From positions 62,001 to 126,000 of the forward strand of contig PESC01000054.1 in assembly GCA_002929135.1 (NCBI GenBank): a DNA stretch of 64,000 nt, in the 5' to 3' direction. The first letter of the stretch is position 1. Each line of letters begins with the position of its first letter. This DNA is from Methylomonas sp. GTDB lineage: Bacteria; Pseudomonadota; Gammaproteobacteria; Methylococcales; Methylomonadaceae. Shown here one piece after another: positions 39,039-43,092 of the stretch. The position numbers and the translations under genes were made by a program. The notes beneath the pieces are model-generated. The model was given only the letters and a program-made list of their open reading frames with translations, was not told the DNA's origin and made no database searches.

Positions 39039-39482
39039 GTGGAACGTTTTACCATTTCGCTGAGCGACGAGCTGGCGGCGGATTTCGATCGCTGGATACA
39101 GGCCAAAGGCTATGTCAACCGCTCCGAAGCCGTCAGGGATTTGTTGCGCAAGGAAATCGAAACCGAGCGGCTCGAAAAAAACCAGGCAGCGCATTGCATT
39201 GCCACGCTGTCCTTCGTTTACAACCATCACGAGCGCACCCTGGCCGACAGGCTGACGCACATTCAGCACCATGCGCACGATCTCGTTGTCTGTTCCACCC
39301 ACGTTCACCTTGATCACGATGACTGCTTTGAATCGCTGTTTCTGCGCGGCGCCTTAGAGCGCGTTCGCGGCTTTGCCGACAAGGTATCCGCCGAATCCGG
39401 TGTCAGACACAGTATGGCCAATATCGTCCCCGCCAATTTGACAGCCAATCAAGAGCACAGCCATTTCCAACCGATGACCTGA
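39039..39482 (+). CDS. nikR: Nickel-responsive transcriptional regulator NikR
   Basis: A 147-residue repressor. The N-terminal ribbon-helix-helix (MERFTISLSDELAADFDRWI) binds DNA, and the C-terminal ACT domain binds nickel through His77, His88, His90 and Cys96, which align with the E. coli ligands His76, His87, His89 and Cys95. A GTG start is used, preceded by a near-perfect AAGGAGA ribosome site; a much longer open frame upstream is not family-like. No nik ABC genes are present; the target is probably the downstream TonB receptor. Confidence 0.93.
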   Translation: MERFTISLSDELAADFDRWIQAKGYVNRSEAVRDLLRKEIETERLEKNQAAHCIATLSFVYNHHERTLADRLTHIQHHAHDLVVCSTHVHLDHDDCFESLFLRGALERVRGFADKVSAESGVRHSMANIVPANLTANQEHSHFQPMT

Positions 39483-39490
39483 TCGCCCAA

Positions 39491-39540
39491 GGTGTTAATA
39501 CGTTTTTAGTTCTCTTCATACAGTGATGTACCATAACACC
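39491..39540 (+). promoter_or_regulatory. Candidate NikR operator upstream of TonB receptor
   Basis: A perfect 7-bp inverted repeat, GGTGTTA at 39491-39497 and TAACACC at 39534-39540, lies between nikR and the receptor gene. GTGTTA-type half-sites resemble NikR sites I recall from deltaproteobacteria, but the 36-nt spacer is longer than the canonical one. The position before the receptor fits nickel repression. Confidence 0.4.
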
Positions 39541-39573
39541 CTGAATGATGACGGACACACCGGATGGAGCAAT

Positions 39574-41694
39574 ATGCGCACTTATAAAAACAACAAACTC
39601 GATCAGCGAAACATTCTATCGCTTGGGCTGACTACCGCTCTGATGCTAGGTAGCGCATGGGTTCAGGCCCATCCCAAGGGCGAAGAGCTAGAGGCAGTCG
39701 AAGTCGAAGATGGCCGTGGCAAGGATTTGATCGGCATCGCCGAATCGGCCTCGCAAGGCGAAATCAGCCAGAAGCAGTTTGAACACAGGCCATTATCGCG
39801 GCAGGGCGAACTGCTCGAAGTCGTTCCCGGCATGATCGCAACCCAGCACAGCGGCTCGGGCAAGGCCAACCAGTATTTTCTGCGCGGTTTCAATCTGGAT
39901 CACGGCACCGACTTCACCACCTTTGTCGATGGCATCCCGATGAACATGCCCAGCCATGCTCATGGCCAGGGTTATCTGGATTTGAACAGCATCATTCCCG
40001 AGCTGGTCAACACAATAGAATTCGGCAAGGGGCCGTACTATGCCGAAGTGGGTGATTTCGCCTCGGCCGGTTACACCAAAATGCGCACCGTCGATCGCCT
40101 GAAAGACGGCATCGCCAAGTTCACCGCCGGGTCTTTCGATTTTTACCGTGCGCTGGCGGCCAACTCGTCAAAAGTAGGGGACGGCGATTTGTTGTACGCC
40201 GGTGAATTCAATCTGTACAACGGCGTGTGGGAAGTCCCGGAAAACACTCAGCGTTTCAACGGCATGTTGAAATATACCGTCGACAATCACGACTGGGGCT
40301 ATTCGATCGACGGCAAAGCCTATTCCAATCGCTGGACGGCCAGCAACCAGATTCCGCAATCGGCGATCGATGCCGGCTTGATCGGCCTGTACGGTGCCAT
40401 GGATCCCACCGACACCGGCGAAAGCAACCGTTACAGCGTGGCAGGCAACCTCTGGCAATACGGCGACAACTGGAAAAACACCGGCAATATTTACGCGCTG
40501 TACACCGATCTGGATTTGTTTTCCAACTTCAGCGGTTTCACCCGTGGCCCACAGGGCGACCAGATACTGCAAACCGAACGCCGGGTGCAAACCGGCGGCA
40601 GCATCGAGCACACCCGTTACAACAAGATACTCGGCTTCGAAATGGATAACAGCGTCGGCCTGCAATTCCGCAACGATCAGGTCATGGGGCTGGGTTTGTA
40701 CAACACTCGTGCAGGCCAAATTCTCGATACCGTCAGCAACAGCGATGTCGGCGTGACCACGGTAGGCGTTTACCTGAAAAATCATACCCACTGGCACGAT
40801 AAGGTTCGTACCATTACCGGATTGCGCGCCGATTTCCTCAATAACGAGGTCAGGGTGCTGGAATCGGCGCTAAATACCGCCGAGATCAATGACGGCAACT
40901 CAGGCAATCGCGGCAAAGTGATGCTGAGTCCAAAAGTGGGGCTGGTGCTGGGGCCTTGGTATGACAGCGAATTCTTCGTCAACGCCGGTTACGGTCATCA
41001 CTCCAACGATGCACGGGGTACGACCTTGCGGGTGAATCCAGACGGCACACCCGCCGTAAATGAGGTAGGCGCCTCGATCGCCCGGATAGCACCTGCGGCC
41101 TGGACACGCGGTAGCGAGGTGGGCTTTCGCACCAACGTCATCCCTGGACTGAACAGTACGGTTGCCGCTTGGTGGTTGCAGACCAGTCAGGAACTGGTAT
41201 TCGTCGGCGATGCCGGTACAACGGAAGTGCGGGGCATGTCCGACCGTTACGGGCTGGAGTTCACCAATTACTACAACCCGACCGACTGGCTGATTCTGGA
41301 CGCCGATTACGCATTGACCACCGCCAGATTCAGCGAGAACGGCGATTATGTACCCAACTCGGTTGGCCGGGTCATCGGCACCGGAGCAACCTTGATTGCG
41401 CCCAACGGCTTGTTCGGCACGGTGCGTCTTCGCCACTTCGGCCATGTACCGCTGGATGAACAAGGCGAGTTTTGGGCGGGCGATACCAGCATCGTCAACC
41501 TGGGCGCAGGCTACAAGCAAAAAACCTACCGACTGGATGTCGATGTCTTCAACGTGCTGGGTTCGCAGGACAGCGATATTGCCTATGCCTATCCCTACAG
41601 CTTCGGCGGCATTGACACCGGGGGCGCCAATGGCTTGTTGCGGCATCCTGTCGAGCCACGGATGATCCGGGGTACCATCACGGTCAATTTCTGA
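39574..41694 (+). CDS. TonB-dependent outer-membrane receptor, probable nickel uptake
   Basis: A 706-residue receptor. The signal peptide spans about 1-33 (ILSLGLTTALMLGSAWVQAH), followed by a plug domain with RQGELLEVVPGMIATQH and YFLRGFNLDHGTDF, then a 22-strand barrel ending in the C-terminal Phe of TITVNF. His and Met appear at the predicted ligand loop (GIPMNMPSHAHGQGY), apt for a soft metal. It follows nikR by 91 nt, with an inverted repeat in between, so it is probably nickel-repressed. Substrate assignment rests on context. The ATG at 39574 has GGAG upstream. Confidence 0.85.
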   Translation: MRTYKNNKLDQRNILSLGLTTALMLGSAWVQAHPKGEELEAVEVEDGRGKDLIGIAESASQGEISQKQFEHRPLSRQGELLEVVPGMIATQHSGSGKANQYFLRGFNLDHGTDFTTFVDGIPMNMPSHAHGQGYLDLNSIIPELVNTIEFGKGPYYAEVGDFASAGYTKMRTVDRLKDGIAKFTAGSFDFYRALAANSSKVGDGDLLYAGEFNLYNGVWEVPENTQRFNGMLKYTVDNHDWGYSIDGKAYSNRWTASNQIPQSAIDAGLIGLYGAMDPTDTGESNRYSVAGNLWQYGDNWKNTGNIYALYTDLDLFSNFSGFTRGPQGDQILQTERRVQTGGSIEHTRYNKILGFEMDNSVGLQFRNDQVMGLGLYNTRAGQILDTVSNSDVGVTTVGVYLKNHTHWHDKVRTITGLRADFLNNEVRVLESALNTAEINDGNSGNRGKVMLSPKVGLVLGPWYDSEFFVNAGYGHHSNDARGTTLRVNPDGTPAVNEVGASIARIAPAAWTRGSEVGFRTNVIPGLNSTVAAWWLQTSQELVFVGDAGTTEVRGMSDRYGLEFTNYYNPTDWLILDADYALTTARFSENGDYVPNSVGRVIGTGATLIAPNGLFGTVRLRHFGHVPLDEQGEFWAGDTSIVNLGAGYKQKTYRLDVDVFNVLGSQDSDIAYAYPYSFGGIDTGGANGLLRHPVEPRMIRGTITVNF

Positions 41695-42234: not shown

Positions 42235-43092
42235 ATGACCGTCAAGTCGACAACCATCAAACACCTGCTGCTGGCGAGTGCGACATTCGGCGCCCTGCCA
42301 GCCTATGCCCAGGATCAATTCAGGGTCTGCGCCGACCCACTCAATCCGCCGTATTCAACCCAGGCACAAAGCGGTTACGAAAACAAAATCGCCGCACTGT
42401 TTGCCAGCCAGTTGGGCCAGGCGCTTTACTACTTCTGGCTGCCGGAACGTATCGGCTTCGTGCGTAACAGCCTGAAAAGCGAAAACGACGATGGCACGGG
42501 CTACAAATGCGATGTCATCATGGGTGTACCTGCCGGATATGACTTGACTGCCACCACCCAGCCTTATTTTCATTCGACCTATGTGCTGCTGATTGCCAAA
42601 GGCCGGGGCTGGGACGACATTGCCACAGCCGAACAGCTTGCACAGCTGCCGTTCGAACGACGCAAAAACATCAAGATCGCCATGTTCGACCGTGGCCCCG
42701 GCACCGAATGGCTGCAAAAACACGATTTACTCGAACAAGGCGTGCCGTATCAGAGCATGACCGGCGACGCCGAACATAACATCGCCATGCAGATCGAAAA
42801 CGATCTCAGCCGTGGCGTCATCGATATGGCTATTTTATGGGGGCCTATGGCGGCTTATGTGCAATCGAAACAGCCCAAAAACGAACTGATCGCCATTCCC
42901 ATGCAGTCATCGGAAGGGGTGCGATTCGATTTTTCGATCGCGATGGGGGTTCGTCAGGGGGATGACGAGCGCAAAAAACAACTCAATGCGCTGATCGACA
43001 AAAACCGCGATGAAATCGCCCGCATCATCACCGGTTACAACATTCCCTTGTTACCCATCCCGCCGCGCCATCCGCCGAAAGACGACGATTGA
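42235..43092 (+). CDS. Quinoprotein-dehydrogenase-associated periplasmic protein (MxaJ/XoxJ type)
   Basis: A 285-residue secreted protein with signal peptide LLLASATFGALPAYAQDQFR. The mature start FRVCADPLNPPYSTQAQSGYE and KCDVIMGVPAGYDLTATTQP are typical of the extracellular solute-binding-like proteins that accompany PQQ methanol dehydrogenases. MxaJ and XoxJ are thought to help activate the dehydrogenase rather than bind a transported solute. No mxaF, xoxF or cytochrome gene is adjacent, so it is an orphan copy, convergent with malQ. Confidence 0.87.
   Translation: MTVKSTTIKHLLLASATFGALPAYAQDQFRVCADPLNPPYSTQAQSGYENKIAALFASQLGQALYYFWLPERIGFVRNSLKSENDDGTGYKCDVIMGVPAGYDLTATTQPYFHSTYVLLIAKGRGWDDIATAEQLAQLPFERRKNIKIAMFDRGPGTEWLQKHDLLEQGVPYQSMTGDAEHNIAMQIENDLSRGVIDMAILWGPMAAYVQSKQPKNELIAIPMQSSEGVRFDFSIAMGVRQGDDERKKQLNALIDKNRDEIARIITGYNIPLLPIPPRHPPKDDD

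Follow-up and report, generated by a model that had tools for sequence, protein, structure and literature searches.

A gene for the nickel-responsive regulator NikR followed at short distance by a gene for a TonB-dependent outer-membrane receptor, as found in a stretch of 64,000 nucleotides of a Methylomonas genome (the window in the following), raises the question whether the regulator controls the receptor and through which piece of DNA such control would be exerted. The first-pass annotation of this DNA had linked the two genes by a long-spaced or looped operator, built from an inverted repeat in the region between them. Comparison with related methanotrophs leads to a simpler answer, which we regard as probable, namely a control unit of ordinary type for nickel uptake in Methylomonas-type methanotrophs, in which nikR and the TonB receptor are connected via a classical NikR box (Table 1).

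The regulator gene is intact. The window NikR is composed of a RHH DNA-binding domain and a NikR_C domain, so both domains that characterize the NikR family are present, with NikR_C at 97.3 bits against a cut-off of 22; the NCBIfam equivalog PRK02967 was reached with 179.4 against a cut-off of 83, while TIGR02793 gave 138.7, which is below its own cut-off of 175.45. The best solved relative is E. coli NikR, and the four nickel ligands that had been noted initially are all in place, as H77, H88, H90 and C96 align with H76, H87, H89 and C95 of the E. coli protein. Equally, the first strands are similar, with R3, T5 and S7 in the window protein for R3, T5 and T7 in E. coli, residues which we take to read the DNA. 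By its sequence, the window nikR is predicted to encode a complete NikR. The NikR from Geobacter uraniireducens has reportedly been the subject of a study.

For the receptor, the ATG at 39574 has been preferred as the start over the GTG at 39523 given in the list of open reading frames. The sequence GGATGGAG precedes this ATG, and the N-terminus of the protein is signal-peptide-like and resembles the M. lenta counterpart, which has a similar start; ATG 39574 is thus designated as the most likely start codon. The 91 bases between the end of nikR and this ATG hold both arms of the inverted repeat. The assignment to the receptor family is based on the plug domain together with the TonB receptor fold, as recovered by domain, profile and fold searches.

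Table 1. Features of the nikR-receptor locus and of a NikR-boxed operon elsewhere in the genome (window positions unless stated otherwise)
Feature	Position	Strand	Description
nikR, nickel-responsive regulator	39039..39482	+	147 aa, GTG start; RHH_1 and NikR_C domains; PRK02967 above cut-off; E. coli NikR closest solved relative
Left repeat arm GGTGTTA	39491..39497	+	exact; last three bases inside predicted NikR box
Predicted NikR box TTAATA-N15-TCATAC	39495..39521	+	27 bp, degenerate left half; best matrix site of the window
Intact right half-site TCATAC	39516..39521	+	identical in 7 of 10 relatives' sites
Right repeat arm TAACACC	39534..39540	+	exact
TonB-dependent outer-membrane receptor	39574..41694	+	706 aa; plug domain; M. 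lenta-like N-terminus and start; profile and fold matches
NikR box and operon (outside the window)	L111:7366-9459 = G000:C1:137365-139458		192-aa membrane protein, 134-aa protein, CopC-domain protein, 203-aa protein

The perfect repeat GGTGTTA/TAACACC between nikR and the receptor is indeed present, with both arms exact and their centres 43 bp apart. Its symmetry alone is nothing special: the window contains 384 exact 7-bp inverted pairs with a gap of 3-50, at least one such pair is found in 132 of 703 window tiles of 91 bp, and shuffling the nikR-receptor intergenic region produced one in 620 of 5000 cases. Some points in the wording of the arms favour a long-spaced or looped operator, in which NikR would bind the two arms as delta-type half-sites. 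Six of the seven bases of each arm match the delta-proteobacterial NikR half-site (PMC545781), inward-facing GTGTTA/TAACAC words arise in just 47 of 200,000 shuffles of the intergenic region (about 2 in 10,000), and the 7-bp form with a gap of 10-40 arises in none of 100 shuffles of the whole window. The genome possesses a single place for the 7-bp form at gaps of 10-40 and for the 6-bp form at gaps of 30-40. Furthermore, in a half-site matrix of the relatives the left arm reaches 2.6 and surpasses TTAATAC at the left end of the predicted box (-2.3, below background). The words GTGTTA/TAACAC were, however, fixed for the shuffle tests only after they had been seen; the match to the delta-type word is a coincidence noticed after the fact and has therefore been tested on relatives.

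This comparison speaks against the arms. Neither of them occurs near any of the ten relatives' NikR boxes checked, and the boxes of relatives whose NikR is closely related are of the type GTATGA-N15-TCATAC, of which this genome itself has a strong example, so that the contrast drawn initially with the compact E. coli NikR box does not apply to this lineage. A delta-type site of normal spacing (GTGTTA-N13..18-TAACAC) is absent from the genome and was rejected as a candidate; equally, no second long-spaced copy is found there. The spacing of the arms fits none of the cited NikR operators, and a normally spaced candidate is located inside the repeat. Lacking conservation, with a spacing outside that of the cited operators and at background frequency as an inverted repeat, the repeat was rejected as an operator; binding of NikR to its two distant arms is highly improbable, and its position straddling the box is most likely coincidental.

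The box itself emerges from the relatives. NikR has been found in 26 of 61 genomes searched, and a contig scan for the receptor delivered 57 loci, the named ones from Methylomonas, Methylobacter, Methylovulum and other Methylococcales. In five of five relatives with nikR directly preceding the receptor (L032, L033, L034, L035 and L047), a GTATGA-N15-TCATAC box with at most one mismatch is situated between the two genes. Other relatives show the order nikR, hupE, receptor with the box upstream of hupE (L038, L042, L044, L045, L080, L088 and L121), whereby the boxes of L042, L044, L080 and L088 were detected solely with a matrix. The link between NikR and the receptor made by the first-pass annotation is supported by these arrangements, be it with the box between the two genes or with a HupE/UreJ gene interposed. 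In a count of distinct nikR-linked receptor relatives, 11 of 12 have a site of at least 21.3 in the symmetric matrix upstream of the receptor or hupE, and the remaining one, L121, carries a box with N16; among the 48 receptor loci that lack nikR nearby, two (L083 and L056) have such a site, where nearby refers to the extent of the retrieved locus (at most about 4 kb). The 12 relatives derive from a list of 14 rows after removal of L039, which shares its contig with L032, and of L036 from the own genome, and the 48 loci do not include L075, which has no row as its upstream region is too short. Sorted by spacer, 15 distinct boxes are found at N15, two at N16 (control 3) and zero to two at other spacings from 8 to 30. 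By this comparison of sequences, these gammaproteobacteria use an NikR box of predicted enterobacterial type, usually with N15.

Gene neighbourhoods vary around this core. The receptor is accompanied by nikR and/or HupE/UreJ in many loci of relatives and by neither in a number of loci; a HupE/UreJ nickel-permease gene adjoins it in many relatives, and among those of the loci L037-L093 that lack nikR, many Methylococcales have hupE paired with the receptor, in most cases without a box. In L116, L117, L118, L119 and L120 a box comes after nikR, and neither hupE nor the receptor appears later in the stretch read, and a box after nikR alone is therefore no proof of receptor control. Considering the conserved box together with the computed gene order, the receptor gene next to nikR is most likely a target of the regulator. 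Two NikR-box-like sites stand in tandem at the hupE promoters of L038, L045 and L088 (separated by about 23 bases in L038), and another such tandem, with the sites 5 bases apart, is seen at L033:3429-3487.

When the 63,974 positions of the window are scored with a symmetric matrix built from 15 relatives' boxes, one site ranks highest at 12.6, the runner-up having 6.1. This site, TTAATACGTTTTTAGTTCTCTTCATAC, shares three bases with the left repeat arm, and the right arm starts 12 bases past its end. Its right half-site is identical to the consensus, its left half-site agrees in three of six bases and the N15 spacing is normal; with the best matrix score of the window at normal spacing, the operator is predicted here, inside the repeat. 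The two halves contribute unequally, as the right one scores 12.8 and the left one falls below background with the -2.3 given above. If the matrix is restricted to the 6+6 half-site bases, the site leads by only 11.3 to 11.2. Moreover, the full symmetric score (12.6-12.8) is below that of all 11 N15 relatives (21.3-36.4), and it is exceeded in four of the 48 receptor loci lacking nikR. The word TTCATAC on either strand turns up in 2925 of 200,000 shuffles of the intergenic region, about 1.5%, and in many relatives the receptor is found without nikR nearby and without a box. The weak left half, the score below those of the N15 relatives, the shuffle frequency and the loci without nikR and box would suit a decayed box, with a receptor that escaped nickel control or obeys another regulator and with TCATAC as a relic or a chance half-site.

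An oriented matrix speaks against decay. It was made of ten sites, one per nikR-linked locus, selected with the symmetric matrix, excluding L044 (identical to L042), L039 and L121 and using the higher-scoring one of the tandem boxes in L038 and L045. With this matrix the window box reaches 21.6, twice the 10.1 of the runner-up across both strands of the 64 kb and equal to the weakest of the ten training sites, which score from 21.6 to 35.6 upon leaving each one out; none of 49 loci without nikR (420,415 bases, one strand) attains 21.6, the best one having 21.4. Degenerate left halves also exist in relatives, as TTAAGA upstream of hupE in L042, L044 and L080 is one base off the TTAATA of the window, and nikR and the receptor are still adjacent. 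Decay of the box is consequently judged rather unlikely. Even less can be said for a composite operator, in which the intact TCATAC would be combined with the delta-type GTGTTA/TAACAC arms at the unusual spacings N18 and N36 and NikR would read mixed half-sites or two tetramers would come together over some four turns of DNA; such an arrangement seems scarcely probable. With the classical box as the preferred target, the weak left half-site suggests that higher levels of nickel or of NikR than in the relatives may be required for repression. A scan of 39380-39620 found no sigma-70-like promoter or terminator.

The genome has uses for nickel. It encodes a urease, along with UreD and a UreJ-type permease, and a [NiFe]-hydrogenase large subunit, which points to a need of this genome for the metal. 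One cluster (G000:C42, L112) comprises urea ABC-transporter-like genes, named by eye, together with a UreJ-type permease, ureD and ureC. An exact GTATGA-N14..17-TCATAC is absent from the own genome. With up to two mismatches 67 matches are obtained versus 45 for the reversed control, so the counts alone say little. Four of the genomic matches have one mismatch, three of them in loci with a best matrix score below 0 (L097-L099). The fourth, GTATGA-N15-TCATAA at G000:C1:137365-137391, is the strongest NikR box noted in the genome, with a matrix score of 34.7, an A+T-rich spacer and a promoter position 68 bp before the operon with the CopC-domain gene (Table 1).

This operon may constitute a new nickel-handling unit. 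Its 192-aa membrane protein has no Pfam or NCBIfam match and is 72-78% identical in 10 relatives; the structure model is of low confidence (pLDDT 70). Relatives of the operon are arranged divergently from nikR in many Methylomonas. That the operon is generally NikR-boxed was considered and rejected, as four of four other loci (L123-L126) have no box of under four mismatches within 450 bp; compared with these loci, a directly upstream box is particular to this genome. In M. lenta (L030; G015, C165), a second nikR-like stretch, matching in two pieces of which the first is weak (36% over 64 residues), adjoins an exact NikR box and the first gene of the CopC operon, and might perhaps be a damaged second nikR.

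Taking the classical box as the operator, we infer the following course of events. Upon plentiful nickel, nickel-loaded NikR would bind the 27-bp box upstream of the receptor gene and repress it, with repression as described for E. coli (PMC7055735). Upon nickel shortage, repression would be released and the receptor made, which would then bring free or chelated nickel to the periplasm, for use in urease and [NiFe]-hydrogenase.

The last step, nickel as the cargo, can be seen separately from control. A receptor linked to NikR might mainly transport something else, such as cobalt, a metallophore or an organic cofactor such as PQQ, which would be compatible with the favoured explanation of control. 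In the profile search, no solved relatives other than YncD and the PQQ transporter PqqU were obtained at E <= 0.001, and this match spans about 155 profile positions. PqqU is also the top fold match of the receptor model, with siderophore and copper receptors ranking only slightly lower. This model has a low confidence (pLDDT 63), and its matches, among them PqqU, FoxA, FhuA, FecA and OprC, show identities of 11-16%; the cargo is therefore not readable from the fold. The second gene after the receptor (42235-43092) encodes a MoxJ-like periplasmic protein of a quinoprotein dehydrogenase system (TIGR03871), a neighbour that would agree with a cofactor as cargo and is in keeping with the methanotroph host. 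The presence of HupE/UreJ genes and NikR boxes beside the receptor in relatives argues for nickel, HupE/UreJ permeases being described as transporters of nickel and, for some cyanobacteria, as having a role with cobalt (PMC4284471). A main cargo other than nickel is accordingly considered unlikely.

Recognition of this unit would extend the predicted NikR regulon by a methanotroph TonB receptor family whose members often go together with HupE/UreJ permeases. Equally, a precise predicted 27-bp target takes the place of the doubtful lead of a looped operator, and the nickel route across the methanotroph outer membrane becomes testable via a single gene. The literature search found no paper that joins NikR with Methylomonas.

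Among known systems, the literature describes the E. coli nikABCDE operator as GTATGA-N16-TCATAC (PMC7055735, PMC545781) and enterobacterial and delta-proteobacterial NikR operators as having N13/14 between 7-bp half-sites (PMC545781). The boxes of the relatives resemble the enterobacterial operator in having the same inverted half-sites about two turns apart, but differ in that N15 is usual and in that the left half is degenerate in the window; furthermore, the predicted target gene encodes a TonB receptor or HupE, unlike the ABC importer of E. coli. The delta-proteobacterial operator, GTGTTAC-[N13/14]-GTAACAC (PMC545781), is approached by the repeat arms in the wording of the half-sites already mentioned, whereas 34 bases separate the 7-bp half-sites in the repeat. 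In H. pylori, NikR controls the outer-membrane proteins FecA3 and FrpB4 for nickel uptake (PMC7055735, PMC5385501), which resembles the predicted linkage of NikR to an outer-membrane receptor in the window; the H. pylori operator, with 20 nt between half-site centres and the consensus TRTTA/TAWTA (PMC5385501), differs from the methanotroph box, and the receptors are compared by role. Nickel TonB receptors of other proteobacteria, such as FecA3, FrpB4, CntO, Bll6948, Daro_3944 and others, have been compiled (PMC11247825) and are also mentioned elsewhere (PMC4284471); the window receptor is likened to the compiled ones by its presumed place in nickel uptake, again a likeness of role. In Sphingobium, HupE/UreJ-like, CopC and TonB-receptor genes are changed by nickel (PMC5557971). 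According to these sources, NikR-controlled outer-membrane receptors are an already known kind of system, which the predicted methanotroph unit would join.
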